Positions 1 through 17,143 of a stretch of 21,226 nt of DNA are shown here, in pieces. The stretch covers positions 1 through 21,226 of IMG/VR virus record IMGVR_UViG_3300030012_001447; one strand, 5' to 3'. Position numbers and translations under genes: made by a program. Position 1 is the first letter of the stretch, and every line of letters starts with the position of its first letter. A model generated the notes under the pieces. It did no database searches. It saw only the letters and a program-made list of their open reading frames with translations, and was not told the origin of the DNA. Source of the stretch: a virus.

Positions 1-3000
1 ACTCAACATCAAGGTGATATCACTTCTCTTGGAACTCTAACGGCTCTTACTGGTGGAACAGGAGATTTAGTTTGGGACACGAAAACATTAGTTGTTGACT
101 CATCAGCCGATAGAGTTGGCATAGGCACTACAAGTCCCGAATCTAAGTTAGAGGTTGTTTCTGCTCTTAACCCATCATCTGCGACTCAATTCACATACGC
201 TGAGACATTAAAGTTAGATGTCGAAGACAGTGATTCTGCCGAAGGGCCAGCAATAAGATTCAGGCATGGTGCGACAAGCGACCACAACGCTGCTGACTAT
301 ATGTTCCAAGTGAACGGTGATGGTGGTAGTGCGGTTTCACACGAATACTCCTTCAACTATGGATTCAGAAAATGGCATCATGCTACTGGTGCTGATGGCT
401 TCAAGCCAGTAATGAGATTCAAGGCAGCAGGAGACACTAGTGCTAGTGGAACACAATACGGAGAGTTTATTCTAACTTCAACCGATACTGCATGGGATGT
501 CTATGATGGAACACATACAGGAATTGAGCCTTCTACATACAATACTCAAATAAAGTTGAGTGGTGGTGAAACATCTTACATCAACAATGGACAGAACTTC
601 GGAATAGGCACTACGAGTCCAGATGAAGCACTTCATGTAGTCGGTGACATCAAGGCTTCTGCTCATCTACACGGAACAAGAGTCAACATCCAACATGGCA
701 GTGATTATGGTTCTATTGAGATGGGTGGCCCTTCGGGTGCTTTCATCGACATGAAGAATCCATTCTCAGATGACTATGATGTTAGATTCTTCACAACAGG
801 AACAAACTTGGACATCATTACTGCAAACGCTGCCTCACCTATACAACTCAAGACACAAGGCACAACAAGACTAACAGTAGCAGACGCTACAACCACAGTC
901 GCTAACGACTTAGCAGTAAGTGGTGATTTATCTGTCACAGGCTCATATGGATTAGCAGCAGGAGATATACCAAATCTAGCAGCGTCTAAGATTACTTCAG
1001 GAACTTTCGCAACCGCAAGAATTGCTGATGACGCTATCACAACGGCTAAGATAGCAGATGACCAAATAACAAATGCTCTGATGGCTGATGATGCGATTGA
1101 TAGCGCACAACTGGCTGACGCTTCAATAGATGAAGTTCATTTGAATGCAACAAATACTGCTGTGGATAACTATCTACTAAGTTTTGATTCTGCATCAGGT
1201 GGATTTACTTGGGTAGCAGCAGGTGCAGGTGGAGAGAACAATCAGAATGCCTTCAGCAATGTAGTAGTTGGTTCAGATACAATAGCAGCAGATTCGGCAA
1301 CTGATACGCTGACATTAGCAGCAGGTTCTAATGTAACAATTACGGCTAATACATCTAACGATACTGTTACCATTGCATCCACAGATACCAACACACAACT
1401 CTCTACTGAGCAGGTTCAAGATATCGTAGGTGCAATGTTTAGTTCAAACACCGAGACTAGAATATCCGCAACGTATCAAGACGGTGACGGTACGATTGAC
1501 CTCGTTGTAGATGATATGACAGCAGATACTAACACCCAACTGTCAAATGAACAAGTACAGGACATTGTAGGAGCAATGTTTACCACTACAAACACCGAAA
1601 CTGGAATCACCGCTACATACCAAGACTCGACAGGAGACATAGACCTAGTTGTTGGAACTCTGAATCAAGACACAACAGGTAATGCTGCCACTGCTACATT
1701 AGCATCAACAGTCACTGTGTCAGACAGCAATGCAGACACAAACTTCCCTATTGTGTTTCATAATGAGTCAAATGGTCTACTTGATGACACTGGTAAATTG
1801 AGATACAATCCAAGCATAGGAAAACTGCTTGTTCCTGAACTACAAGTTTCCGGTGACACTACAATATACAATGGTACTAGCGAAGCACATCTAATACTCA
1901 GAAGAAACGCTACTGGTACAAACTTTGGTTCAGCAATTAAGTTCCAATTTGGTGATTCAGGTAGTGCTTCCTCTGGACATGAGTACGCTAGAATAGTGGG
2001 GGCAATCCAAGACTCGACTGATGGTTCAGAAGACGGGTACATGACATTCTCAACTTCAAAGGATGGGACTCTCACCGAAGCCATTCGGATTAACAAGGAT
2101 GGGGATGTCGGAATAGGCACTTCTAGTCCTCAAGGAGAATTGCACGTTGCAGGTAGTATCATCGTTGATTTCGCTTTAGCACACGGAGGAGATACCAACA
2201 ATCAAATCACCTTCACTACTGATACTCAGACATTCAAGACAGACGGAACTTCCCGCATGGATATTACCGATAGTGGTATCAGATTGGGTGCTGCTAACTC
2301 AAGAGTGACTACTATCCTAGATGAAGATGCTATGGGTAGTAACAGTGCAACTGCACTAGCAACACAACAATCAATCAAAACTTACGTTGACAATTCTGTA
2401 TCTAACTTGGTTGATTCAGCACCTTCAGCACTTAACACTCTAAATGAACTTGCAGCAGCATTAGGTGATGATGCTAGTTTCTCAACAACAACTGCTACCG
2501 CTTTGGGCAACAGATTGAGAATTGATGACAGTCAATCCCTCAATAGCACACAACAGGCACAAGGTCTGACTAACTTGGGCATTACTGCATCCTTAGCGGA
2601 AATCAATATCCTTGATGATGGATTATCCGCATCCGACATTCCTACATTAAACGCATCTAAGATAACAGCAGGGACTTTTGGAACTGCAAGAATACCCACA
2701 CTGAACACTTCAAAGATAACAGCAGGGACATTCAACGATAACAGAATAGCAGAAAGCAACGTGACTCAACATTTAGCAGTTGGTTCAGGTGGAGGTATCG
2801 GTCTATCAGGCAAGACATTCTCACTAGATGTTGATGGAATGACGGACATCGGAGCGGCATTAGTAGACGATGACCTAATGATAGTCGATGATGGTGCAAA
2901 CGGCACTAACAGAAAGGCAACGATGTCTAGACTAAAGACATACATGCAGAACAATCTCACGTTCACCACAGATACGAATACCACAACTACTGCTGATGTT

Positions 3001-6000
3001 AAAACTGCTCTTAACGCTGACTTAGGTGGCAATTTCACCATAGGAACGCAAAGCAATGATATAGCAACATTCACAGGCGGGTTAAATATTCCCGGTTCAA
3101 GTGCGGCTTCTGACAACAACCCGCCTTATGATGGCTATCAATTTAGAGATAGACAAGACTTAGGTATGTTTGAGGAAAACTTTTCTATTCTAATCAAAGC
3201 ACCTGAAGAAATCTATATGCAATTAGATTCTAACAGTAACAATAGCGATAATACTTTCTTTGCTATAACCAAAAATGGAAAAACAAGTCATGCAGGTAGT
3301 CATACTCAGATATTCAAAGTGTTGGAAACAGGTGCTGTTACATTCAATAACGCATTTACATTCCCAACCTCAGACGGTTCAGCAAATCAAGTATTGAGAA
3401 CAGATGGTAGCGGAGCAGTAACTTGGGAAAATCAAACTGATACTAACACACAGTTAACGACTGAACAAGTTCAGGACATAGCAGGGCCATTGGTAGCAAC
3501 AGGCGGAACTAAGACTAGAATCGCAGTAACCTATGATGACACAAACAACAACATGGATTTCGTTGTAGATGACATGAACTTCTCTGTATCAGATATCACA
3601 GGTGCAGATGCTCTAACAAGCGGTCTTGCATCAACAGATGAGTTAGTTCTCAGTGACGCTGGAACACTCAAGAGGATGGATATCTCTGTTCTTCAATCAT
3701 ACATGCAGAGCAATCTCTCATTCTCCAACAACGCAGGAGATATTACAGGAGTTACTGCCGGAACAGGACTGAGTGGTGGTGGTGCGAGTGGTGCAGTTAC
3801 ACTTGCTGTTGATTTATCAGAATTAACAGACATGACTGCTGCTGTCAATTCCAGTGAAGATGAGTTGATTATACTAGATAATGGTGCGGATAGAAGAAAA
3901 TTAATCTCAGAGATACCATTATCAGCATTCAATAACGATAGTAGTTTTACTTCTAATACTGGTGACATAACCGCAGTTGTAGCAGGTACTGGTTTAACTG
4001 GTGGGGCATCAAGTGGTTCTGCTACACTCAATGTTATTGGCGGAACTGGTATAACCGCTAATGCAAATGATGTGGCGATAACGGCTGCACAAACAGGAAT
4101 AACCTCCGTTCTGAACTCCTCGTTGAAGTTAGGATATGGAGCATCAGATGCTTACATCAACTTCGGAACTGATAATCAGATTGACTTTGCAGTAGACAAT
4201 GCGAATCAATTGATACTTTCGGATGGTATGTTCAGACCTGCGGGTAGCAATGATGTCTCATTGGGAGATGATGCAAAGAGGTGGTCAAATGTAGTGACTC
4301 TCGGTTTGAGTCTTGGAAGTGGTGGAAGTGGAACAATGACCGCCATCTTAGATGAAGATGACATGACTTCTGACTCCGATACTGCTCTAGCAACTCAACA
4401 GTCTATCAAAGCATATGTAGATGCAAATGCAGGTGGTGGTGGTGCATCACTCTCCAACGGTGTAAATAACAGAGTAGTCACTGCAACAGGCTCAAGTGGT
4501 TTGAATGGAGAAGCCAATCTGACATTCAATGGAAGCACTCTTGCTTTGACAGGAGACTTGAATGTAGGCAGTGGTGACTTGTTCGTTGATGACTCCACTG
4601 GTAGAGTGGGGATAGGAATAGGAACAAGCCCAATCAACCTATTGCATATCAAGGGAGACAACTCAACCACATCGCAATCAAGCGGTGGTGCAGCAAGCAT
4701 TACCATAGAACAAGATGGTACAGGAGATGCTGCCCTCAACTTCCTACTCACAGCGACACAAAGATACATCTTGGGTGTTGACAACAGTGACTCTGACAAG
4801 TTCAAAATTCAAACAGGCGTGACTTCTCTAGGTTCAGACTCTGGAACAGCAAGACAAGCAGGATTCACGATGGACACTAGTGGTAATGTCGGTATAGGAA
4901 CTACCAGCCCACAATCATTATTGCATGTAACAAGCGGTGCTTCCGGTGATGCTGTTCTTCTCCTTGAGGCAGACACGGACAATGGCGATGAGACAGACCA
5001 ACCATTCATTATCTTTGCACAAGATGGTGGAACTCAACACTCAGCAATCGGCAGTTTCTCAGGTGCAAACGCCGACAACAACGCTTTGATTCTTTCAAAC
5101 TCGGTTTCTTCAAGTGGTGTTGAAGCAGGTATCATCTTCAAGACAGGAACTTCTGCTGGCTTTGAGAATGGTAACGAAAGGCTGAGAATACTACCTGCGG
5201 GTGGTATCAAATTCAACGAGGCATACACATTCCCCACATCAGACGGTAATGCTAACCAAGTGTTACAGACAGATGGCAGTGGTACACTCTCCTTTGCAAC
5301 AGTAAGCAGTGGAGGAGGAAGTAGTGGTAGTACGGGTGCAAAACCATCCGTGTATATGGATGCGGGTAACGTCAATGTCACCACAACAGAAGTAACTATA
5401 CCATTTGACACCGAGGTATTAGACCCTGATAACAATGCATCATCAACTACTGATGGACATATCAGACTTGCTGCTGCTGGCTTATATGAGATTTCATATT
5501 CCATACCCATAAACGATGACGCTCCAAGCGGAGACAGTGGTGCTGATAGAACGAGGATATTCGCCTTTGTTCAACATGATGACAATAACTCATTCTCCTC
5601 TCCAACAACTATCGCACAGTCAAGGTCACAAGTCTATACGAGAGAAAACTCAGGCGGTTCGGGTCTTAGCACTTCATTCATCTATGAGCATACTGCTAAC
5701 GATTACATTAGAATAAGAATAGACGCAGAGAGAACGACAAACATATCCACTGAAACGGGAGAAGCACAGATTAGCATAAGGATGCTATCTACTGCTTCTG
5801 AGACTATTGTTATCACTGCTGAAGAGTCGGATGATTATATCAGTGCCGAGGCTGCTGCTGGTAATGCCAATGGTTTCTTCCCTTCATACGGTAATGGAGC
5901 GCATAACACAACCAAGTCTTCCAGTGGAAGTGACTTTGGTATTGTTATACCCGTTGATTGTACTCTAACTAGAATTGATTTAACCTTCGGTAACAAAGGC

Positions 6001-6249
6001 AGTGAGACAAACTCAACTAATCAGACGGTTACAGTATTCAAGAACAGGTCTGCATCAACTACCACATTCACATATAATGCAAGCGGAAGTGGTGGTAATG
6101 CATTTACAAGGTCTTTCACATCCTTCAGTGGTAATGGAACATCTTATTCCGCAGGTGATACATTCAACTTGAGGGCAACTGGATTGGCAGGATACACCGA
6201 TACACAAGTCGGCCCTGCAAGAATGACAGCGACATTTACGGTATCGTGA
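1..6249 (+). CDS. giant repetitive tail-fibre-like structural protein (5' end outside window)
   Basis: The frame is open from base 1, so this is the C-terminal 2082 residues of a larger protein; the ATG at 301 is internal. It is rich in Gly, Ser, Thr, Asn and Asp with almost no Cys, typical of beta-structured virion fibres. Modules recur: GIGTTSP turns followed by an LHV-type strand, TNTQLSTEQVQDI blocks, DIPNLAASKITSGTF blocks, GDITGVTAGTGLSGG blocks, ATALATQQSIKTYVD blocks and FPTSDGSANQVL blocks. From about base 5341 to 5800 a domain starting KPSVYMDAGNVNV and containing GLYEISYSI resembles a C1q/TNF-like jelly roll, a common receptor-binding tip. A last beta-rich domain (about 5810-6249) ends MTATFTVS. 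There is no C-terminal intramolecular chaperone peptidase signature. Similar GIGTTSP/LHV proteins are known from marine phages. Likely role: long tail or side fibre for host attachment. The fibre assignment is inferred from repeats and from the following gene. Confidence 0.85.
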   Translation, partial: TQHQGDITSLGTLTALTGGTGDLVWDTKTLVVDSSADRVGIGTTSPESKLEVVSALNPSSATQFTYAETLKLDVEDSDSAEGPAIRFRHGATSDHNAADYMFQVNGDGGSAVSHEYSFNYGFRKWHHATGADGFKPVMRFKAAGDTSASGTQYGEFILTSTDTAWDVYDGTHTGIEPSTYNTQIKLSGGETSYINNGQNFGIGTTSPDEALHVVGDIKASAHLHGTRVNIQHGSDYGSIEMGGPSGAFIDMKNPFSDDYDVRFFTTGTNLDIITANAASPIQLKTQGTTRLTVADATTTVANDLAVSGDLSVTGSYGLAAGDIPNLAASKITSGTFATARIADDAITTAKIADDQITNALMADDAIDSAQLADASIDEVHLNATNTAVDNYLLSFDSASGGFTWVAAGAGGENNQNAFSNVVVGSDTIAADSATDTLTLAAGSNVTITANTSNDTVTIASTDTNTQLSTEQVQDIVGAMFSSNTETRISATYQDGDGTIDLVVDDMTADTNTQLSNEQVQDIVGAMFTTTNTETGITATYQDSTGDIDLVVGTLNQDTTGNAATATLASTVTVSDSNADTNFPIVFHNESNGLLDDTGKLRYNPSIGKLLVPELQVSGDTTIYNGTSEAHLILRRNATGTNFGSAIKFQFGDSGSASSGHEYARIVGAIQDSTDGSEDGYMTFSTSKDGTLTEAIRINKDGDVGIGTSSPQGELHVAGSIIVDFALAHGGDTNNQITFTTDTQTFKTDGTSRMDITDSGIRLGAANSRVTTILDEDAMGSNSATALATQQSIKTYVDNSVSNLVDSAPSALNTLNELAAALGDDASFSTTTATALGNRLRIDDSQSLNSTQQAQGLTNLGITASLAEINILDDGLSASDIPTLNASKITAGTFGTARIPTLNTSKITAGTFNDNRIAESNVTQHLAVGSGGGIGLSGKTFSLDVDGMTDIGAALVDDDLMIVDDGANGTNRKATMSRLKTYMQNNLTFTTDTNTTTTADVKTALNADLGGNFTIGTQSNDIATFTGGLNIPGSSAASDNNPPYDGYQFRDRQDLGMFEENFSILIKAPEEIYMQLDSNSNNSDNTFFAITKNGKTSHAGSHTQIFKVLETGAVTFNNAFTFPTSDGSANQVLRTDGSGAVTWENQTDTNTQLTTEQVQDIAGPLVATGGTKTRIAVTYDDTNNNMDFVVDDMNFSVSDITGADALTSGLASTDELVLSDAGTLKRMDISVLQSYMQSNLSFSNNAGDITGVTAGTGLSGGGASGAVTLAVDLSELTDMTAAVNSSEDELIILDNGADRRKLISEIPLSAFNNDSSFTSNTGDITAVVAGTGLTGGASSGSATLNVIGGTGITANANDVAITAAQTGITSVLNSSLKLGYGASDAYINFGTDNQIDFAVDNANQLILSDGMFRPAGSNDVSLGDDAKRWSNVVTLGLSLGSGGSGTMTAILDEDDMTSDSDTALATQQSIKAYVDANAGGGGASLSNGVNNRVVTATGSSGLNGEANLTFNGSTLALTGDLNVGSGDLFVDDSTGRVGIGIGTSPINLLHIKGDNSTTSQSSGGAASITIEQDGTGDAALNFLLTATQRYILGVDNSDSDKFKIQTGVTSLGSDSGTARQAGFTMDTSGNVGIGTTSPQSLLHVTSGASGDAVLLLEADTDNGDETDQPFIIFAQDGGTQHSAIGSFSGANADNNALILSNSVSSSGVEAGIIFKTGTSAGFENGNERLRILPAGGIKFNEAYTFPTSDGNANQVLQTDGSGTLSFATVSSGGGSSGSTGAKPSVYMDAGNVNVTTTEVTIPFDTEVLDPDNNASSTTDGHIRLAAAGLYEISYSIPINDDAPSGDSGADRTRIFAFVQHDDNNSFSSPTTIAQSRSQVYTRENSGGSGLSTSFIYEHTANDYIRIRIDAERTTNISTETGEAQISIRMLSTASETIVITAEESDDYISAEAAAGNANGFFPSYGNGAHNTTKSSSGSDFGIVIPVDCTLTRIDLTFGNKGSETNSTNQTVTVFKNRSASTTTFTYNASGSGGNAFTRSFTSFSGNGTSYSAGDTFNLRATGLAGYTDTQVGPARMTATFTVS
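118..4911 (+). repeat. GIGTxSP-type protein repeat, five copies in the fibre gene
   Basis: Copies of the GIGT(T/S)SP turn, followed by a short strand such as LHV or LEV, lie at 118-138, 601-621, 2110-2130, about 4609-4632 (variant GIGIGTSP) and 4891-4911. Each begins a module of about 100-200 residues. The DNA copies have diverged at many third positions, so they are old repeats kept at protein level rather than recent duplications. Confidence 0.8.
1384..3600 (+). repeat. TNTQLSxEQVQDI module, three copies in the fibre gene
   Basis: A module of about 47 residues starts with TNTQL-EQVQDI, continues with an ATYQD-like strand and usually ends DLVVDDM. Copies start near 1384, 1525 and 3439. The first two are tandem; the third is about 1.9 kb downstream. 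Copy three has lost the GAMF segment (GPLV instead) but keeps the ending DFVVDDM. Confidence 0.75.
2317..5283 (+). repeat. paired distant modules (LDEDxM/QQSIKxYVD and FPTSDGxANQVL) in the fibre gene
   Basis: Two further module families occur as distant pairs. LDEDAM...ATALATQQSIKTYVD is at about 2317-2394, with LDEDDM...TALATQQSIKAYVD at 4348-4425. FPTSDGSANQVLRTDGSG is at 3361-3414 and again as FPTSDGNANQVLQTDGSG at 5230-5283. The spacing between members is 2031 bases for the first pair and 1869 for the second. This suggests that a block of about 2 kb was duplicated, or that modules are shuffled as units. Confidence 0.65.
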
Positions 6250-8545: not shown

Positions 8546-8793
8546 TCGTCACCACTTTCCCCTGTCCAAAGATTTGCTAGTTTCTTAGCCTGAGCCTCTG
8601 CCGGGTTAGGAGCAACGATTAGGTTTGGTTTAACCATCCACGCTACTAGATGTTCTCCGCCACCGACTGTTATCATCGTTGACAGATACCACCCATCCTT
8701 CCCATATGTATTCAGGGACTCATTTATCACTTTTGGGCCATCACTAACACTAAACACCAAGAACTGATGTTCATATGTATCTTTTTTTGTCAT
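8542..8793 (-). CDS. DUF4177-like small protein
   Basis: An 83-residue protein starting after GGAGGAAAAATA-ATG. The pattern YEHQFLVFSV, then LNTYGKDGWYLSTMITVGGG and VAWMVKPN, matches the DUF4177 layout: a strand, a helix ending LNxxGxxGW, then two strands. The family is common in bacteria and phages and has no known biochemical role. The C-terminal 25 residues are Ala/Lys-rich and end acidic (ESGDE). It lies between the helicase and exonuclease genes and overlaps the latter. Confidence 0.6.
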   Translation of the reverse strand: MTKKDTYEHQFLVFSVSDGPKVINESLNTYGKDGWYLSTMITVGGGEHLVAWMVKPNLIVAPNPAEAQAKKLANLWTGESGDE

Positions 8794-10268
8794 TATTTTT
8801 CCTCCTTATTTTTCATTCTCACATATGCCCGTATACCTATTTTCTTGTTATCAAACATATCTGAAATTTCCTTAAACTGCCTGTATATGGTTGCTTGTCC
8901 TTTTTTCGTATCTTTCCTTACTTTTTCTAACAGTAGTGCTTTATTCACCCAACCATCATCGTCTTCTCTTAGCAACTTTGTGTACGCTATTCTAAAAGCA
9001 TTAACATTCACTTTCTCATGTAAAGCAGTTGCCTTCACCTTCAAGGCTACATCAAGCCACGTTACCAGCGATTTATAGCATTGTCGAATCACTGAAGAGG
9101 CTTGACGTACATGCCTTTCAGTTACAATAAACCTCTTATCTTTGTCCTTTATGTTAGGTGCTTCAGCGATACAACATAGGACTGCAAGCCTAGTCATAGT
9201 CTGATTCAGCCTTGTGATAAAGTTGCCAGCAATCTCAAACACTTCAGGTCTGCTGCTTGATACATAGTTCCTCATCTTATTAGATTCGTTCTTCAGAGCA
9301 TCATTGAATCCTCTGCCGAACCTGATGGTGTGAAGTGGGTCATTACCTGCATCTTCATACCTCTCCCTAAGAGCATCATAAATCAGAGCAATGTTGTTTG
9401 CATGTTTCTGAATAGGAGCATTCTTCGGTTTGATTGTTCCTATCTCATCTAGAATCATCTCTCTCAATTCATCCTGTATTTCCTGTGGAACTTCAGAGAT
9501 GAAAATCAACGTTCTCTGAATGACTCCCTTCTCTGCTATGATGCTTGTTAGCATCTTAGGAATGTAGGTAGTAGCATACAGACTCCTCTGACTCCTGCAC
9601 TCAATCATGTCACCCTGTCGTAGTTTCTTCTGTATAATCCAGTTCTCTCCATAGATAGTGTTCATCATCTTGTTAAGATACATGATTACATTCTCTTTGT
9701 GCTGTGAAGCCTTGAATACACCTGAGTATTCAAACTCATCATAGGCAACTAATCCACTGCCTTCAAAACCACCATCAATCTGAACTAGTTGTTCTTCCCA
9801 ACTGGTGTTTCCATTCTCATCCTCTACTGCTACACGCTCCTTCTCAATAGAACCAATCAACGCAGCATCAGTAGCATCATCAACTGAGAACACATCAAAC
9901 TTAGTGCCAAACTTAGCATTGATTAAACGCATTGCTTCCTTAGCAACAGGGCCAAAGAAATCATACAGCACAGTCTTTCCAGTTCCTGATGTTTGCATCC
10001 ACAGGAAATGTATTCTTGTGTCATCTCTTCTTGTCCCACTTGGTATAGAAACCATGTCTTTGCATATTTGTCCTAAAATAACAAAGAAACCAATCGTTGC
10101 TGGTATCTCGTTGTACTTCGACATATCTGCTGCGTCTTTCACATACTGTTCTACTACCTTCGGTAAACTGTTCTTCTTTTGAACAGGGACTACATTGCTA
10201 TCACTCAGTCCTTCGTAGTATAGGCGGTCATCATTATATTCATCATTTTCATTCATATTGGTATCCAT
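8793..10268 (-). CDS. AAA+ ATPase, probable replicative helicase
   Basis: A 491-residue P-loop ATPase. Walker A is QTSGTGKT (residues 92-99) and Walker B is GLVAYDEFE (172-180). A later segment, KGVIQRTLIFISEVP, is where an arginine finger or sensor would lie. The helical lid region (about 290-420) is followed by a probable winged-helix domain (about 425-480, LLLEKVRKDTKKGQATIYRQ). The layout fits DUF3987-like or MCM/SF3-related virus helicases better than DnaB, and I cannot decide among them by eye. Its position next to primase and XPF genes supports a helicase at the fork. The start at 10268 follows GGTGAT by five bases. It directly abuts the XPF-like gene stop (TGA-ATG). Confidence 0.7.
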   Translation of the reverse strand: MDTNMNENDEYNDDRLYYEGLSDSNVVPVQKKNSLPKVVEQYVKDAADMSKYNEIPATIGFFVILGQICKDMVSIPSGTRRDDTRIHFLWMQTSGTGKTVLYDFFGPVAKEAMRLINAKFGTKFDVFSVDDATDAALIGSIEKERVAVEDENGNTSWEEQLVQIDGGFEGSGLVAYDEFEYSGVFKASQHKENVIMYLNKMMNTIYGENWIIQKKLRQGDMIECRSQRSLYATTYIPKMLTSIIAEKGVIQRTLIFISEVPQEIQDELREMILDEIGTIKPKNAPIQKHANNIALIYDALRERYEDAGNDPLHTIRFGRGFNDALKNESNKMRNYVSSSRPEVFEIAGNFITRLNQTMTRLAVLCCIAEAPNIKDKDKRFIVTERHVRQASSVIRQCYKSLVTWLDVALKVKATALHEKVNVNAFRIAYTKLLREDDDGWVNKALLLEKVRKDTKKGQATIYRQFKEISDMFDNKKIGIRAYVRMKNKEEK

Positions 10269-10961
10269 TCATATCACCATTTTTTCTTCTTTGTTCAGCA
10301 CATCGACTACCCTCTTGGCAATCACCTTTCCGAATCCATCTAATTCACATATCTCTTCGATGGATGCTTCCCCTATCTCCATGATAGAGCCGAACCTTTC
10401 TATCAGGAGTTTTGCTTTCTTAGGGCTTATGCCCTTTATCGTGCATAGCACATCTATTCTCAAATCAGTAGTTGCTATGCGCTTTCTGATTATGCTAGGA
10501 GTGTGTATCTCTCTATCTATCGGATGCATCTTACAGACAACAGCGATTAGTCTCGCTGCTTGTCTAGCAGATGATACCCAAATGATGTTAGCGTCTGTAT
10601 CTAGTATTATCTTACCAAACGCACCATCAAACTTGTTTCTCAACATCCTTGCCTGTCCTGCCTTGTTGTTGACATAATGCAAGTGATTCTCCAAAGCATC
10701 ATTGAAACTGCCATATACAATCACAACGTTATTGACGAACTTCGCATCCATGTTATCTAATTGATTCCAAAGCCTCTTGTTTATCACAGAGGATAGGAAA
10801 TCAAAGGTTGACTTCGCTTCAAAGCATACATCAGCAAAGGTATAATCCCCAATGTCCAACCATTCTTTCTCGTATGGCACATTCAACTGTTTACAATATG
10901 TCTCTACTAATTCAGAGAGTTCTGAGTCTTCTCTACTGTCAATCTTCAGTTTATCCATCAT
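10269..10961 (-). CDS. XPF/Mus81-family structure-specific nuclease
   Basis: Counted from the ATG at 10961 (230 residues, placed behind GGAGGTATC and overlapping the primase stop), an ERCC4 nuclease domain occupies about 5-145: IDSRE (D8), IGDYTF (38-39) and FEAKSTFD (E48, K50, D54). A tandem helix-hairpin-helix follows (173-222, TIKGISPKKAKLLIERFG and LDGFGKVIAKRVVDVL). This is the short archaeal XPF plan without a helicase domain. Such enzymes cut 3' flaps, forks and nicked junctions, usually as PCNA-bound dimers. The conserved ERK is EAK here: the Arg is replaced while Glu and Lys remain. No PCNA box is evident at the end (NKEEKMVI). Role: fork or recombination intermediate processing. Confidence 0.88.
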   Translation of the reverse strand: MMDKLKIDSREDSELSELVETYCKQLNVPYEKEWLDIGDYTFADVCFEAKSTFDFLSSVINKRLWNQLDNMDAKFVNNVVIVYGSFNDALENHLHYVNNKAGQARMLRNKFDGAFGKIILDTDANIIWVSSARQAARLIAVVCKMHPIDREIHTPSIIRKRIATTDLRIDVLCTIKGISPKKAKLLIERFGSIMEIGEASIEEICELDGFGKVIAKRVVDVLNKEEKMVI

Positions 10962-11961
10962 GATACCTCCAACACTTACCAACACAGAATCCTTGAGGAA
11001 TCAGAACATTTCCACAACTTGGGGCGTTGTATCCTTTATCCACGATTCCCCTAACATACCTCTCGGTAGTAGGTGCATTCCAATCAAGCCATATATCGGT
11101 CTTTGATGCTATTGTCTCAAGTTCATTCATTATGCTAGTTGTGATTTGTTTGTTCTGTTCAGGGGTAGGATTCCTATTACCCATGCTAAGTAAATCACGA
11201 TACCATTGAACAAGATAGACTCTAGCATAATGACTAGGGTTCTCCACCATGATTGCATTGTGTAGACATGGGAGTATGGGAATCTTACCAACAGGAGTTG
11301 GTATCTCCACTTCTATGTCGCTCATTTCAATTGGCTTCATCTCAGGGAACACAACTAGTTTAGTTCCATTGTTTGATACTACCTTTCTAGGTCTCTTAGC
11401 CATCTCCAAGATAGAGTATAGACTACCCTCTAAGTCTTCGACTAGAAGGGGTATGCAGAAGTAGGGATTACCATTCTCATCAGAACTACTCAGATTCATT
11501 GAGTTTGGTAGTCTCCTTAACCTATTAGTTTGGATACCCGTTCTATCAAGCGTAGGCACACCATCACTGACTTTGGAATAATACTGCTGAATGCTTCTGA
11601 TATCATCTACTGGTTCTCCATAGACAAAGACATGGAAGCCCTTCCCGCTAAAATACATTTTGAAGATAATGTCCTCTAAGACCAAATCAGAGACTACTTT
11701 CTTCAAGTCTCGATAAGCATCTTCTAATGGCTCATCATGGGCATCAAAATCTAGAAACGCTCTATCTAATACAACAGAGTTCTCCATCTTTACTTCGTTC
11801 TTGAAGTGTTCAAAATCATAGACTGTCGTATAGCAGTTCATCTTCCCATTAAAGGAATTGAACCAATTAACAAACTCACTCTTCGTCTTGACTACTCTTC
11901 TCTTCATCTGTGGAGCGTTTCTTAGATGACTTCCGGCCCACACTTCTCTTGGCATTTTCAT
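10951..11961 (-). CDS. archaeo-eukaryotic primase with PriL-type Fe-S domain
   Basis: A 336-residue protein. The start at 11961 is chosen because AAGGAGG lies nine bases upstream; a longer reading from 11997 lacks this. The AEP catalytic core shows motif I FLDFDAHD (D71, D73), motif II FSGKGFH (S105, H110) and motif III around LDRTGIQTNRLRRLPNSMN (D139, R147, R149). After residue 225 the sequence switches to the PriL C-terminal plan: LPC (C232), a helical region, APSC (C316), GFC (C326), GKC (C330), giving four cysteines for a 4Fe-4S cluster. Cellular archaea keep these parts on two subunits, PriS and PriL; here one small chain has both. It would make primers or act as a primase-polymerase for viral replication. 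It overlaps both neighbours. Confidence 0.88.
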   Translation of the reverse strand: MKMPREVWAGSHLRNAPQMKRRVVKTKSEFVNWFNSFNGKMNCYTTVYDFEHFKNEVKMENSVVLDRAFLDFDAHDEPLEDAYRDLKKVVSDLVLEDIIFKMYFSGKGFHVFVYGEPVDDIRSIQQYYSKVSDGVPTLDRTGIQTNRLRRLPNSMNLSSSDENGNPYFCIPLLVEDLEGSLYSILEMAKRPRKVVSNNGTKLVVFPEMKPIEMSDIEVEIPTPVGKIPILPCLHNAIMVENPSHYARVYLVQWYRDLLSMGNRNPTPEQNKQITTSIMNELETIASKTDIWLDWNAPTTERYVRGIVDKGYNAPSCGNVLIPQGFCVGKCWRYHDG

Positions 11962-12250
11962 TTTTATTATCCTCCTTAAACGAGACTTCCGCTTCAAGCA
12001 ACTCTGCTCTTACGACTTCTGCTATTTTTATTCTTAATTCTGTCATCACTGTATTCATGTATATCTGACCGAATGGTGTTCTCTCTTCAGCAAACACATC
12101 AGTCTCCCATACCATCTTCAGTTTATCAGTTGTAGGCATCTTCTGATACAATATCTCTGCTAGATTGTTTACTGTCTCAGATACATTCGCAATCTCTGAG
12201 AAACTCCATACCTTTTGTTTTAGTTCTTCTTTTACCATTTCATCTATCAT
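11876..12250 (-). CDS. hypothetical protein with charged disordered tail
   Basis: A 124-residue protein from the ATG at 12250, which sits seven bases after GGAGG. An upstream ATG at 12283 lacks this and runs through the 36-residue ORF. Residues 1-90 are predicted helical (MIDEMVKEELKQKVWSFSEI and onward). The last 35 or so are Lys/Ser/Glu-rich and probably disordered, ending KSSQDEE. The gene overlaps the primase start by 86 bases, so it is coupled to it. No family is recognised. A primase accessory role is possible but only by position. Confidence 0.65.
   Translation of the reverse strand: MIDEMVKEELKQKVWSFSEIANVSETVNNLAEILYQKMPTTDKLKMVWETDVFAEERTPFGQIYMNTVMTELRIKIAEVVRAELLEAEVSFKEDNKNENAKRSVGRKSSKKRSTDEEKSSQDEE
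11971..11977 (-). promoter_or_regulatory. ribosome binding site that sets the primase start
   Basis: AAGGAGG on the minus strand, nine bases before the ATG at 11961 and inside the end of the preceding gene. It supports the shorter primase reading over the 348-residue one. Confidence 0.7.
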
Positions 12251-12350
12251 TTTTCTTCCTCCTTGCCTTTCTTTTGTTTTCACGATACTGCTCCCAAGTC
12301 ATCCCATCATCTTCTGTTATGAAAGCCCATAGTCTCCTTAGTAGTTTCAT
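12240..12350 (-). CDS. basic 36-residue peptide
   Basis: The ATG shares one base with the stop of the Cas4-like gene (TGATG), and the ORF runs over the start of the next gene. The sequence starts MKLLRRLWAFITEDDGMTWE and ends in a very basic run (RENKRKARRKKNDR). It fills what would otherwise be a 100-base gap. It could bind DNA or RNA. No homology is recognised and the call depends on coupling and size. Confidence 0.45.
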   Translation of the reverse strand: MKLLRRLWAFITEDDGMTWEQYRENKRKARRKKNDR

Positions 12351-13216
12351 CAGAACCAACTCTCCGTGTTAGCGGCATCACAAATACCAAAGAAACTACA
12401 ATTAGAACAGGTCTTCGCAAAATACTTCGTTGGGAATATTCCTGTTTCATAGGAATGAATCATCTCTGCTATTCCTTTCTTAACAGCAGTCATACTACTC
12501 TTCTTAGCATCCTCGACATAGATGTAATTAGCAGCAGGATAATACCAACCCCAATGGGAGATTGGTAAACTAGGGTCAATACCCATTTCCTCTAGTTCTT
12601 CATTGGGTGTGTTTTCAAACAGTATCTTGTAGAATGCCATCTCTTTACGCATCATGGTCTTCTTCCAATCTTTCCAACCACCAGTCTTCAACTCCATAGG
12701 AATGTATCTATCTCCTTCCTTGAACATCCTATCGATGATTCCCTGTAAGTGAACAGTATAGTTCTGTGATAGTTCGTACTTTGGGTTCTCGTTTCTATCT
12801 ATCTCAATTCTAGCATCTAACATCACTTCATTGACAACAGGAACGAAATCATCAGTAGTACCTTCAACTCTTGATTCCATGAACCTGTTTGCTTCAAAGA
12901 TAGACATAGCCTCATACATCTCAGTGTAATCATCTATTGGATGAAGACTCATGCAATAGTTAACTAGTTCTTCATGCGAAAGATTCTCTGCTTTCTTTAC
13001 ATCGAAGGCATTGAAGAACGCCTCTCTAGCATTGTGTATGATGCTTCCCTTAATCATGACTTCAGTAGTTTCTATTGGTCTTTTTTCGACATATTGAAAC
13101 TCATATCTCTTAGGACACCATTGATAAGAACCTAGAGAAGACTTTGATATCTTCAATATTGGTTCTCCTTCTTGTCCGTAATTCTCAGGCTTCCATTGGT
13201 ATGTATATTCACTCAT
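12350..13216 (-). CDS. Cas4/RecB-like PD-(D/E)XK nuclease with Fe-S cysteines
   Basis: A 288-residue protein. After ISKSSLGSYQWCPKRYEF (C34) comes GSIIH (H61), then GIIDRMF (D162) and MELKTGG (E175, K177): the GxxxH, D and ExK set of RecB-family nucleases. The C-terminus holds CSNCSFFGIC (C270, C273, C279). With C34 these are the four cysteines that hold a 4Fe-4S cluster in Cas4 and AddB. Such enzymes resect DNA ends, usually making 3' overhangs, and are common in archaeal viruses. No cas1 or CRISPR array is nearby, so a viral recombination or genome-processing role is more likely than adaptation. The end, TESWF, resembles the hydrophobic half of a PCNA box but lacks the Gln. Confidence 0.87.
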   Translation of the reverse strand: MSEYTYQWKPENYGQEGEPILKISKSSLGSYQWCPKRYEFQYVEKRPIETTEVMIKGSIIHNAREAFFNAFDVKKAENLSHEELVNYCMSLHPIDDYTEMYEAMSIFEANRFMESRVEGTTDDFVPVVNEVMLDARIEIDRNENPKYELSQNYTVHLQGIIDRMFKEGDRYIPMELKTGGWKDWKKTMMRKEMAFYKILFENTPNEELEEMGIDPSLPISHWGWYYPAANYIYVEDAKKSSMTAVKKGIAEMIHSYETGIFPTKYFAKTCSNCSFFGICDAANTESWF

Positions 13217-13237: not shown

Positions 13238-14179
13238 TCAAAACCATTCCTCCAAGGATGATTGTTGTGTGTCTCTCTTTATCTGCATAGTATCCCACCC
13301 CATTGCTCTGAAGATAGGCTCTGCTTTCTTTACCACCGATTCCGCATAATGAGACCAGTCAGGCTCAAAGTCACTAAACTCATCAGCAGTTAATCTAGAT
13401 ACATAGTTAGGAGTGGTAAACTCCCTAGTTATAGGATGCATGTAATGCTCTCTACAATTCTTGATTCTAAGATATAGATAGGTATCCTCTATCTTCTCAT
13501 ATCCCTGTGAATGACTGAACAATACTCCTTCAACTCCTGAAGCAAAAGTAGGTCTTTTACCTCCGACAGTCACGAAGTTGTTATGTTCCATCACTCTACC
13601 AATGTCATCTACACATCCACCATAGTCCATCAAGTCAAAGACACTAACTGACTTGTTGCTCCATCCTTTGTCGAACCTCGCCTTTGGATTACAGTCCTTG
13701 CATACTAATCTGAATCTTTCTTCACGATATCTGCTTCTTTGTAGCACATCTGATAGGGGAATCTTACCTCGCATGACAGAATTGTACTTGTCATTCAGAT
13801 AAGAAACGATTTCTTGCTCTGTTTTACCCTCCACCCACATGTTTAGAACAGAAAGTTGCACATCCTTTGCTAATTGTGTTAAGGATACTCTCTTTGCAGT
13901 GAATCCAGTCATCACAAACTCCTCTTCATCGAGAAATTCACCGTCTTTCCAAGTAATTAGACCTGCATTCCTGTTCTTTGTTGCTCCAACACCTAAAGTT
14001 CGGAAGTATTTCTCAAACTCTAGTGTTACGGGGTGTTCTTTTAGACCCATAACATTAGGAAATGACTCTCTAACGTGTTCATTTAGTATTTTGAGAGTCT
14101 TCTCAGCAGTTTCAATGTTGTTGTCCTCAATATCAACGTAAATTGAGTCAGTATGTCCGTAAACTACCTTCATACGCAT
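13238..14179 (-). CDS. polB: DNA polymerase B, C-terminal part (palm motif C, thumb, PIP box)
   Basis: This 313-residue protein starts at the catalytic motif C: VVYGHTDSIYVD (residues 5-16). It continues through TGFTAKR into the thumb and ends RDTQQSSLEEWF. Archaeal polymerases end the same way (for example RQVGLxxWL), and QSSLEEWF is a PCNA-interacting QxxLxxWF box. The first residues, MRMKVVYGHTDS, align in register with the polymerase just after the end of the N-part, so the two genes together give a full enzyme. The start may be 14179 (seamless alignment) or 14173 (ATGA overlap with the 34-residue ORF). The first Asp of the usual DTD is His; the second (D11) is present. A longer-than-usual thumb region with LVCKDCNP and other Cys lies at about 150-250. 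Confidence 0.9.
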   Translation of the reverse strand: MRMKVVYGHTDSIYVDIEDNNIETAEKTLKILNEHVRESFPNVMGLKEHPVTLEFEKYFRTLGVGATKNRNAGLITWKDGEFLDEEEFVMTGFTAKRVSLTQLAKDVQLSVLNMWVEGKTEQEIVSYLNDKYNSVMRGKIPLSDVLQRSRYREERFRLVCKDCNPKARFDKGWSNKSVSVFDLMDYGGCVDDIGRVMEHNNFVTVGGKRPTFASGVEGVLFSHSQGYEKIEDTYLYLRIKNCREHYMHPITREFTTPNYVSRLTADEFSDFEPDWSHYAESVVKKAEPIFRAMGWDTMQIKRDTQQSSLEEWF

Positions 14180-14274
14180 CCCCCAACTAAATTAAACGTG
14201 TTATTTACGAATGCAACTGTTCCTGTGATGTAAAATGACACTCTAGAGTAGAATATCTTGTCTTCTCTCTTCAT
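14170..14274 (-). CDS. micro-ORF 3 of the polymerase gap (34 residues)
   Basis: The 34-residue ORF starts MKREDKIFYSRVSFYITGTV and continues AFVNNTFNLVGGCV. It is moderately hydrophobic from residue 10 on. The ATG overlaps the previous stop as ATGA at 14271-14274. Its stop overlaps the in-frame ATG at 14173 of the polymerase C-part. Role unknown; it may be a coupled membrane peptide or only a ribosome bridge. Confidence 0.45.
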   Translation of the reverse strand: MKREDKIFYSRVSFYITGTVAFVNNTFNLVGGCV

Positions 14275-14387
14275 GTTAACAACTCCACTGCTATAATTGA
14301 TGCAATAATCAATTTTAATAGACCGAATACTGTTCTAAGCAACGCTAGTGTTGCAAATCTGTCTTGTGACCACTTTTCTATACTCAT
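14271..14387 (-). CDS. micro-ORF 2 of the polymerase gap, membrane peptide (38 residues)
   Basis: The 38-residue ORF starts MSIEKWSQDRFATLALLRTV and continues with a hydrophobic helix (FGLLKLIIASIIAVELL). It would form one membrane span or an amphipathic anchor. Both ends are ATGA overlaps (14384-14387 and 14271-14274). No family is recognised. Confidence 0.5.
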   Translation of the reverse strand: MSIEKWSQDRFATLALLRTVFGLLKLIIASIIAVELLT

Positions 14388-14581
14388 ATTACATTCACAT
14401 CCTGTAAAAGTGAAACTAAACCATACAAGAAGACGAAACCAAACAATATCTTGCCAGTTGTTCTTGCAATTGACCTACTATCCTTCATTAGTTGACGAAT
14501 CGCTTGCTTTCTTAGTTCCGACTCAGATAGTTTCTCTTCCTTGACCTTTGAAAAGTCAATACTTGCACTTTTGATTGGCAT
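14384..14581 (-). CDS. micro-ORF 1 of the polymerase gap, membrane-anchored peptide (65 residues)
   Basis: A 65-residue protein whose ATG shares a base with the TAA stop of the polymerase N-part (TAATG). Residues 1-40 are charged and helical (FSKVKEEKLSESELRKQAIR). Residues 43-60 (GKILFGFVFLYGLVSLLQ) form a membrane span. Its stop overlaps the next ORF as ATGA. There is no Cys/Ser first residue and no C-terminal His-Asn, so it is not an intein half. Role unknown; it could tether replication to the membrane. Confidence 0.6.
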   Translation of the reverse strand: MPIKSASIDFSKVKEEKLSESELRKQAIRQLMKDSRSIARTTGKILFGFVFLYGLVSLLQDVNVI

Positions 14582-16281
14582 TATAGTTCCCTCACTTTGA
14601 ATGCTGCAATGCGAATGGCTTCTCTAGCACTAGCAGTTATACTAGCAGCCAAATCAACATCAGCCCAACCGAATCCCTGATACGCAATAATACCATAGAA
14701 GGATGCCATCAATCTCTTGACAGCAAGTTGGTTGTTGTTCCATTTCACATATTCACTTTTACTTTCACTTTCTTTCATTTTCACTTTGTATTCATTTCTT
14801 AGTTCCTTCAACTCTAGAACTGCTTTAGGTAACAACCCTAGTTCATTGGTGTTGTAATACCTCATGTCATAGTCTTCGACTTTAGAGAAGTCCTTTGGTG
14901 TTCTTAGATTTACACCAAACTCAGTTGGTGTTTTTGATTTGGTTTCCCAAGAGATATTCCTTGCTATCATCATGCTAGGATACAGACCTGCGAAGTCAAA
15001 TGCAGCAACACCCAAATGAAGACCATTTGTGCCTTCACTGAGAGGGTCATAGACCATTGCCCCATCATACTCTACCCTGTCTCCTTTCTTGCCCGTAGGT
15101 GCTTTCCATGAGGCATTTCTCATGAAGTATATTCCACCCATGTTAGAGGCATAGAAACATGCATCGAATGGAGCAATCAGTAAACGTTGTAACGAGAGTA
15201 TTGCTTCAGTTGTGAAGTTCTCCTCGTCTATCCTCTTGATTAACTCAACGTCCTTAACAGCGTACTCTAGATAGGTTTTGGTATCTTCTTGCCAACCTCT
15301 CCTGAAGAACTCGTTCTTATCGGGGAACTTCTCACTCACTAGTTTCTTCTCACCTAAGACATACTCTGAAACATAGTCAAGAGATAGAGATGGTAGAGTA
15401 CCTCGTTGTGCATCATTCCATTGTCTCTCAAAAGCCAAATCAAGCGGGACACATATCCTGCCTTTGATTGGTTGTGCTATTGGAGAATAGTTCTCTATCT
15501 GCTTTGTCTTCAATACTCTCATTCTCTTCTTGATGTTCCATTCAACACCCGTTACTTCGTGGACAGGGGATAACATTCTTGGGTCAATGCTGTTTGCATG
15601 TAGTCTCTCAATCAACTTAGGTAAGTCGAACTTCCAACCGAACCAAGAGATGAGCATGTCAGGGTCTTTCTCTGTCAGCATCATCAGGAATCTTTCAAGC
15701 ACTGTTCTTTCGTTTTCATGACCATCATCATCATAACCATCTCTCCTTGGTTGCCAAGTCAACGTGTAATATTCATCATCGTAGTTATCATACACAACAA
15801 TAGCAGTAATCGCTCCGTCATGTTCACCGCCTTGCATCCATTCCATATCCCAATACCACTTGCGTAGATTATACTCAGGAAGTTCATCTAACTCATCAAC
15901 AGCATATCTGTAATGGTGTTGAACATCTGCTTCGTAAGTCTGAATATCTCTATCATGGTAGTAGGCTCTAACTTTACTCGTTACATTCCTAGCATCTGAC
16001 TTCATTGTTTTATACGGTGTCCATGTTACTTTCACAAGTGAATCACCTTGGAGATTAACCCAATCACCTCTCTCATAAGTTATAGTTGCAGGAAACTTCT
16101 CATTCTGTTGATAGCCTTCCTTCAAGAACACCTTTGTCTCAGTGTCGGTATTAATGATGTTAGAAGCCTCCACAAAGAAATATGGAGAGAAGTCGGCGTA
16201 GGGAATCTCCTTCTCTACAACCTTCCTCTCTTCATCTCTCCATCTTAGGAAGATACCTTCTTTCGTGTTTGCTATTATCAT
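14581..16281 (-). CDS. polB: DNA polymerase B, N-terminal part (exonuclease, motifs A and B)
   Basis: A 566-residue protein. The start is the ATG at 16281, five bases after GAGGG; it gives MIIANTKEGIFLRWRDEERK, like the beginning of archaeal PolB. An upstream TTG at 16341 is rejected. Exonuclease motifs: YWDMEW (D145, E147), SWFGWKFD (D219) and YAVKD (Y340, D344). Polymerase motif A is DFAGLYPSMM (429-438) and motif B is KRLMASFYG (522-530). The protein stops after FKVREL, before motif C, so it lacks one catalytic Asp and cannot polymerise alone. It should need the C-part. In exonuclease motif II, Phe stands where Asn is usual. It follows PCNA and a 28-residue peptide in the operon and is joined to three tiny ORFs and the C-part by overlapping codons. 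Confidence 0.92.
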   Translation of the reverse strand: MIIANTKEGIFLRWRDEERKVVEKEIPYADFSPYFFVEASNIINTDTETKVFLKEGYQQNEKFPATITYERGDWVNLQGDSLVKVTWTPYKTMKSDARNVTSKVRAYYHDRDIQTYEADVQHHYRYAVDELDELPEYNLRKWYWDMEWMQGGEHDGAITAIVVYDNYDDEYYTLTWQPRRDGYDDDGHENERTVLERFLMMLTEKDPDMLISWFGWKFDLPKLIERLHANSIDPRMLSPVHEVTGVEWNIKKRMRVLKTKQIENYSPIAQPIKGRICVPLDLAFERQWNDAQRGTLPSLSLDYVSEYVLGEKKLVSEKFPDKNEFFRRGWQEDTKTYLEYAVKDVELIKRIDEENFTTEAILSLQRLLIAPFDACFYASNMGGIYFMRNASWKAPTGKKGDRVEYDGAMVYDPLSEGTNGLHLGVAAFDFAGLYPSMMIARNISWETKSKTPTEFGVNLRTPKDFSKVEDYDMRYYNTNELGLLPKAVLELKELRNEYKVKMKESESKSEYVKWNNNQLAVKRLMASFYGIIAYQGFGWADVDLAASITASAREAIRIAAFKVREL

Positions 16282-16368: not shown

Positions 16369-17136
16369 TCACCGTGTAATGTATGGGGCTTTGATTAGTA
16401 TTCTGTCTTCACCTGTCCAAATAACAGGAGACTCGTCTTTCAAGTAGATAGTCACAGGAACAGAACCACGAAAGAACTTGTGGAACTGACCAGTTACTTC
16501 TACTGTTGCGGATTCACCATTCATAGATAACGTAGAAACTACAACATCTACATTATCAATGTCAGACTTTCTGCTTGAAATGGTGAAGTGTTGATTGTCT
16601 GTGTCTAACAGATACTTTGCGTTGTTGATAACATCACAAGTCTTGACTGCATCTGCTATTATTGTAGAGCCTGTGGTAATGATAGACTCAAAGACCACAC
16701 TACTAAAGACAGGATTCTCAGGGGTAATGTTGTAGCCTTGAATCCTAGCAATCATTGCCGCATTAGGATGATTGACAACCAATGGGAGACTTGCTCTCTT
16801 TCCTCCACCTTCGTCTTGTAATAAGATAAAGTCATTAGCAACTAGTTGAATCCTGTCTCCTGTAAATGTCTTTAGATACTTCAACATCTTATCTATCTCT
16901 ACGACAATCATATTGTTACCATCTTCACTTGTCTGACTAATGATTGGAACAGAGACTCGACAGATAGTTTGATTGTCGGCATTGTATAGATTCAATATAT
17001 TGTCCTCAACTAGTTCAAGCATAGCGTAGCCTGTCAATTGACTGTTCTTTGCTGAATCTCCGTTGTGATACTTTCCTTTCATCCATACATCTTCTATTGC
17101 GTTTGTTAGCGTTTTATTGTTTATTTCTATTCTCAT
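16369..17136 (-). CDS. pcn: PCNA-like DNA sliding clamp
   Basis: A 255-residue protein, the usual PCNA length. The start at 17136 is fixed by AGGAGG seven bases upstream; an earlier ATG would read through a strong hairpin. The alternating strands and short helices fit two PCNA domains. The first holds MLELVEDNILNLYNAD and IDKMLKYLKTFTGDRIQL; the second holds SSVVFESIITTGSTIIADAV and SDIDNVDVVVSTLS. The end, WTGEDRILIKAPYITR, matches the PCNA C-terminal strand and tail. It would form a trimeric ring that holds the polymerase (which carries a PIP box) and nucleases on DNA, loaded by the RFC protein encoded upstream. Sequence is divergent from cellular PCNA. Confidence 0.85.
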   Translation of the reverse strand: MRIEINNKTLTNAIEDVWMKGKYHNGDSAKNSQLTGYAMLELVEDNILNLYNADNQTICRVSVPIISQTSEDGNNMIVVEIDKMLKYLKTFTGDRIQLVANDFILLQDEGGGKRASLPLVVNHPNAAMIARIQGYNITPENPVFSSVVFESIITTGSTIIADAVKTCDVINNAKYLLDTDNQHFTISSRKSDIDNVDVVVSTLSMNGESATVEVTGQFHKFFRGSVPVTIYLKDESPVIWTGEDRILIKAPYITR

Positions 17137-17143
17137 TTTTATT

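Follow-up and report, generated by a model that had tools for sequence, protein, structure and literature searches.

Why is the replicative DNA polymerase gene of a virus cut in two, and what are the three small genes that occupy the cut? The question arises from IMG/VR record IMGVR_UViG_3300030012_001447, of which positions 1 to 21,226 were analyzed (the window, 21,226 nucleotides (nt) in full). Its family B DNA polymerase (PolB) is encoded by two open reading frames (ORFs), PolB-N and PolB-C, with ORF-a, ORF-b and ORF-c between them. Replicative polymerases are usually regarded as among the least breakable genes. Here such a polymerase is cut at a fixed point across a virus group, and none of the other replication-block junctions compared varies as much as the cut. 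We consider it probable, with good confidence, that the split is fixed, that it acts as a site where cargo genes and whole polymerase halves are exchanged, and that the three ORFs are cargo.

PolB-N (14581..16281, minus strand; 566 amino acids (aa), C-terminal end AAFKVREL) contains the N-terminal domain, the 3'-5' exonuclease, palm motif A (DFAGLYPS) and fingers motif B (KRLMASFYG); it matches Pfam DNA_pol_B_exo1 and DNA_pol_B and, over positions 17-560, phrog_262. PolB-C (13238..14173, minus strand; 311 aa; Pfam DNA_pol_B, aligned with 15 relatives) supplies palm motif C (YGHTDS), the thumb, and a PIP-like motif, QSSLEEWF, at its C-terminus. With the Exo motifs, motifs A, B and C, and the PolB fold, this is a family B DNA polymerase, divided between motifs B and C as an earlier note on this sequence had recognized. 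The cargo spacer between the halves (14170..14581, minus strand) holds ORF-a (14384..14581, 65 aa), ORF-b (14271..14387, 38 aa, hydrophobic) and ORF-c (14170..14274, 34 aa, weakly hydrophobic), the first, second and third cargo genes, all on the minus strand. PolB-N, ORF-a, ORF-b, ORF-c and PolB-C run head to tail, joined by a TAATG overlap and then three ATGA overlaps; the ORF sizes, coordinates and overlap junctions described in the earlier note are all present in the sequence. The last ATGA junction is valid only when PolB-C starts at its second ATG (14173, MKVVYGHTDS), which is most likely the true start, being the one conserved in relatives. Starting at the first ATG (14179, MRMKVV) yields a 10 nt overlap instead.

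According to the structure models, the break falls in a loop, with the final helix of PolB-N on one side and the motif C strand of PolB-C on the other. The AlphaFold model of PolB-N (mean predicted local distance difference test score 86) has a long terminal helix, and its best Foldseek matches are archaeal PolB. The PolB-C model begins with the motif C strand and aligns from residue 1 onward to residues 534-757 of KOD PolB (Z 12). The thumb of this model is confident and much of the palm part is not, as would be expected if the palm needs PolB-N to fold. It had been claimed that the halves join with no residue missing; this is roughly right, though about 2 loop residues are absent at the cut when an intact haloviral PolB is the reference, and about 10 when yeast Pol delta is used. 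Because motifs A and B lie on one chain and motif C on the other, the active site is shared by two chains, and we infer that the halves assemble without a peptide bond to form it. We note that QSSLEEWF (13241-13264, minus strand) resembles a PCNA-interacting peptide, with Q, L and W kept in most relatives, which suggests that PolB-C may recruit a clamp.

Neither a nucleotide search of the window nor a protein search with PolB-C matched annotated phages, and relatives were therefore taken from IMG/VR by searches with each half and by profile searches. These gave 240 loci with both halves, 149 of them with distinct PolB-N. The break point is the same in all 240, and none encodes an intact polymerase; in the loci listed, PolB-N ends in FKVREL or near variants and PolB-C begins M.VVYGHTDS. 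The junction that the earlier note proposed to look for in related contigs is thus general, and a misassembly of the window contig is rejected because every one of these relatives is split. Outside IMG/VR, a contig deposited under a Maricaulis metagenome-assembled genome (L119, NZMJ01000151.1), where it is evidently misbinned, carries an archaeal-virus-type polymerase that is also split. A wider profile search added intact relatives from haloviruses and others, and on the N-half tree the split forms are one clade. All intact relatives found have [GS]DTDS at motif C, against [GA]HTDS in the split clade where the motif is found; the window reads YGHTDS (14144-14173, minus strand; PolB-C residues 1-10) rather than YGDTDS, and every aligned member of the split clade has the His. 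Since this is a single event on one branch, the link between the split and the His change may be coincidence.

Each half is also initiated separately. A Shine-Dalgarno match of at least 4 nt lies ahead of 91% of PolB-C starts and of 90% of the starts of cargo genes, versus 15-23% of control ATGs; the PolB-C start of the window has a match of only 3 nt by the same measure (ttgggggatgcgtATG). PolB-N and PolB-C are a fixed two-subunit replicative family B polymerase made from two Shine-Dalgarno-led cistrons within a single coupled operon, in which two separately initiated ORFs jointly cover one polymerase. These signals, together with the coupled coding spacer, argue strongly against an intron, an intein or a frameshift as the means of joining the halves.

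The halves are constant in their division and the spacer between them is not constant at all. Across the 240 loci its length ranges from -4 to 2,088 nt. A spacer holds 0 to 10 ORFs, 609 in total, which fall into 99 families (39 singletons) with a median coding coverage of 100%; 415 of the 758 spacer junctions are ATGA and 84 are TAATG. Among ten replication-block junctions, the one between PolB-N and PolB-C has the most distinct lengths (112 in 149). When pairs with PolB-N at least 95% identical are compared, 50% differ by at least 60 nt at the PolB junction. The same pairs differ in 45% of cases where the PD-(D/E)XK nuclease gene is followed by the next large gene, and in 0-16% at the other eight junctions. 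The nuclease gene (12350..13216, minus strand; Pfam PDDEXK_1) is the next core gene downstream of PolB-C and served as a junction control. The exchange can be followed in the window itself: identity plots against L002 give 62-70% nucleotide identity for ORF-a and mostly 90-100% for PolB-N and PolB-C, and the window ORF-a is nearer to that of L006 than to that of L002. Such comparisons show that the cut point is an exchange site at which coupled small genes are gained, lost and replaced between sharply bounding, conserved polB ends. The second most variable junction lies in the window at 11998-12349, between the nuclease gene (12350-13216) and a 348-aa gene (10951-11997); in relatives it has spacers of up to 5.1 kb and cargo families common to the PolB spacer.

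The cargo amounts to a catalogue of about 99 families, mostly of uncharacterised small viral proteins, one of which resembles CARF-linked small proteins. This family, of about 120-125 aa (125 aa in L004, 121 aa in L085), occurs in the spacers of L004, L012, L085, L099 and L107 and matches phrog_21731 and PADLOC Unk_01, a small protein sometimes fused to CARF; it is a candidate host-defence-related gene. Other cargo includes one DNA methylase gene and one gene for a GNAT-type protein, and these, with the Unk_01-like family, hint at a part in host interaction. A short spacer ORF at 4657-4786 of L304 resembles the N-terminus of a DNA methylase (cf. L134, 6496-7239) and is possibly a decayed cargo gene. 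Another peculiarity is that EEE is the C-terminal sequence in 54 of the 609 cargo proteins; the pre-stop codons (such as GAGGAGGAA) probably serve at the same time as Shine-Dalgarno site for the gene that follows.

HNH endonuclease genes of two unrelated families occupy 7 of the 149 spacers (L139, L140, L156, L162, L160, L188 and L243), always as the first ORF after PolB-N; the window has none. A homing endonuclease gene may have inserted into polB, as proposed for T4-like phages, the nuclease being lost later and other genes moving in. This origin is a real possibility that falls somewhat short of an even chance. The position of the HNH genes directly 3' of PolB-N speaks for it, as does the precedent of Aeromonas phage 25, where a nuclease lies between 43A and 43B (PMC2988022). 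However, the HNH genes are rare, of two unrelated types and not necessarily basal, the deepest split lineages examined hold small ORFs and no obvious nuclease, and the data are matched just as well by nucleases that came late, when the gene had been split before. It is unlikely that the split stems from an intein lost near motif C, with the spacer gathering genes later. The idea draws on the break being near motif C and on the erratic intein excision that PMC4104785 proposes for the split PolB3 of Methanobacteriales, but no intein or split-intein ends are present at the PolB-N tail or the PolB-C head in the relatives listed. In these loci, intein halves of the Nanoarchaeum type are likewise not seen at the end of PolB-N or the start of PolB-C.

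Exchange at the cut extends to the polymerase halves themselves. L154 and L202 share 97.8% identity across 4.0 kb, starting 23 nt before the PolB-N stop and continuing through the cargo, PolB-C and the nuclease gene, whereas their PolB-N are only ~67% identical and that of L202 resembles L272. In L203, a C side similar to that of L154 and L202 is joined to a third N side. L014 and L015 present the opposite arrangement, with PolB-N 99% and PolB-C 71% identical; PolB-C of L014 is 95% identical to that of L059. Discordant nearest neighbours number 19/250 at the PolB junction versus 39/1,560 at the others (Fisher p ~1e-4, indicative only, as the sequences are related). These comparisons show that crossovers at the cut reassort PolB-N and PolB-C between lineages. 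The natural hybrids, in which one C half is paired with diverged N halves, are in effect tests of split active-site assembly and of the tolerance of the interface. That the half-swaps are assembly chimeras is quite unlikely. The contigs are metagenomic and L154-like sequence gives way to L202-like sequence at a short breakpoint, as a chimera would have it; yet L202 and L203 come from different samples and both pair an L154-like C side with different N sides, their shared C side differs by ~7% of nucleotides, L014/L015 is an independent case, and the discordance is enriched at the PolB junction.

Two of the three window ORFs had been described as having clear membrane-type stretches, and the peak Kyte-Doolittle means agree: 1.7 for ORF-a, which has a single hydrophobic stretch near its C-terminus, 2.2 for ORF-b, and a weaker 1.1 for ORF-c. 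Searches of Pfam, PHROGs and PADLOC returned nothing of note for any of them. They are nonetheless genes under purifying selection, a point the earlier note had wished to see checked. Median ratios of nonsynonymous to synonymous substitution in the families are 0.31 (ORF-a, n=30), 0.15 (ORF-b, n=15) and 0.17 (ORF-c, n=9), compared with 0.11 for PolB-C of the same loci, and the alternative frames of the three ORFs are mostly closed; with the split shared by all 240 loci, this puts the arrangement beyond coincidence. The ORF-a family is located only between the PolB halves. Relatives of ORF-b also occupy two other places, one downstream of PolB-C and one at the junction that precedes the ERCC4 gene; copies of ORF-c, 71-76% identical, sit at that latter junction in viruses whose PolB spacer has no ORF-c. 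Of 20 genomes searched (some records are fragments), 9 have ORF-a, 6 have ORF-b and 4 have ORF-c. Five cargo-free lineages (L086, L104, L105, L109 and L355) keep the split, with the halves mutually out of frame and in ATGA or TAATG contact. Because the split persists without cargo, ORF-b and ORF-c have relatives at other junctions and all three ORFs are missing from many genomes, the three ORFs are cargo and not parts of the polymerase.

It is accordingly very improbable that the small ORFs lie between the halves as accessory polymerase parts for co-production, be they scaffolds, assembly factors or membrane anchors. The tight translational coupling, the purifying selection and the restriction of the ORF-a family to the PolB junction would suit such a role. 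Against these stand the cargo-free lineages, the ORF-b and ORF-c relatives at other junctions, the lack of each ORF in the majority of those 20 genomes (11, 14 and 16, respectively), and the unrelated families that fill the spacers of relatives. The same observations leave the anchoring or scaffolding of the halves, raised in the earlier note, without support; its weaker proposal, inserted coding content, is correct. Finally, although the halves align almost in register with intact PolB, the chance that the gap is an intron, or that frameshifting joins the halves into one polymerase chain, is negligible: Rfam gave no intron match, the spacer is coding, with conserved coupled ORFs, and changes freely in length and content, and Shine-Dalgarno-like sites precede PolB-C starts in the clade, so that the intron once named as a possible refutation fails.

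Several points weigh against the reading of a fixed split that exchanges cargo and halves. The association of the halves and their enzyme activity are matters of inference. In the discordance test, related sequences enter the count repeatedly, and chimeric metagenome contigs could explain single half-swap cases. As ORF-a occurs only between the PolB halves, a link of its family to the polymerase is possible. Most spacers are without a nuclease, and homing as the engine of exchange would be conjecture; by analogy with Aeromonas phage 25, it is a plausible helper or founder. Taken with these reservations, the preferred reading can be put as a mechanism. The halves of the two-cistron polymerase would assemble without a peptide bond into one active site, and small coupled genes come, go and are replaced at the cut, within sharp limits set by the conserved PolB-N tail and PolB-C head. 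Homologous recombination via these conserved polB flanks is the likely means, perhaps helped at times by visiting HNH endonucleases, and would explain the sharp edges, the cargo exchange and the half-swapping alike. Why the split persists, and how the cargo moves, can be answered only conditionally. One tentative idea, less likely than not, is that the split is kept as a safe exchange port: any crossover would yield two working cistrons, so that host-interaction cargo and whole halves could be traded, the halves being interchangeable across lineages with N halves ~64% identical.

The clade is a large group of archaeal viruses from the sea, which may belong to the order Magrovirales. The replication block of the window comprises a clamp loader, the split PolB, and PD-(D/E)XK and ERCC4 nucleases; a chaperonin is found in 3 of 12 relatives. 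Two further conserved genes of the block, at 16369-17139 and 8793-10268 (both minus strand), have no sequence match in Pfam, PHROGs or the PDB. The first of these sits upstream of PolB-N, where a sliding clamp would be expected. A clamp-like label for this gene and a helicase-like label for the 491-aa gene find no support in Pfam, PHROGs or the PDB, and both genes were used as anonymous junction markers only; a primase label for the 348-aa gene is also without support. At the other end of the window, positions 1-6249 (plus strand) hold an open-ended ORF, 2,082 aa or longer, in which motifs recur (GIGTTSP, for example) and which resembles a tail fibre or adhesin.

Among known systems, the PolB of Methanothermobacter has fragment sizes that we take to be similar to those here, and we know of no cargo hotspot at its split. 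It is an archaeal PolB made as two chains (Kelman 1999, as cited in PMC4104785) but, unlike the polymerase described here, it is a cellular enzyme for which an intein-excision origin is proposed. Nanoarchaeum equitans also has an archaeal PolB in two parts, although its halves are non-adjacent and joined by a split intein (PMC4104785). In the homing endonuclease gene islands of phages, nuclease genes likewise neighbour essential genes where genetic exchange has its boundaries (PMC10448857); in contrast, most exchange sites here are without a nuclease gene, and the boundary falls inside the polymerase coding sequence. In the OM43 phages MEP401 and MEP402 the viral DNA polymerase is also split, and a small ORF is inserted at the break (PMC10580990). 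These are bacterial phages with a single small ORF, and no exchange analysis was seen in that report.

A viral parallel is provided by Aeromonas phages 25 and 44RR, in which gene 43 is split into 43A and 43B (NC_008208; PMC2988022, citing Petrov 2010), so that two cistrons encode a viral family B replicative polymerase. Phage 25 has a homing endonuclease gene between 43A and 43B, and the account in PMC2988022 reports co-purification and activity of the halves. The cut site is another one: judged by length only, 43A has 498 aa as against the 566 aa of the window PolB-N, which ends before motif C, and the phage 25 cut is probably in the fingers rather than beside motif C. The phage arrangement also involves an untranslated spacer and an intron, and it is not a split fixed throughout a clade and filled with many kinds of cargo. 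Another parallel is the Poseidoniales virus YSH_150918 (Aoguangviridae, Magrovirales), a marine archaeal tailed virus whose PolB is annotated as N- and C-terminal genes, PolB-NTD and PolB-CTD, in a figure legend (PMC10768690). The comparison is with this label rather than with sequences; its split is probably the same as here, and the legend does not discuss the cut site, the spacer or its variability. In the literature reached, which leaves the main magrovirus papers outside, we found no description of a fixed cut, a cargo hotspot or half-swapping. Split PolBs are thus already known from T4-like phages and archaea, and the PolB-NTD/CTD label shows that the magrovirus split had been noticed; what is new is a fixed split that acts as a hotspot for the exchange of both cargo and polymerase halves.

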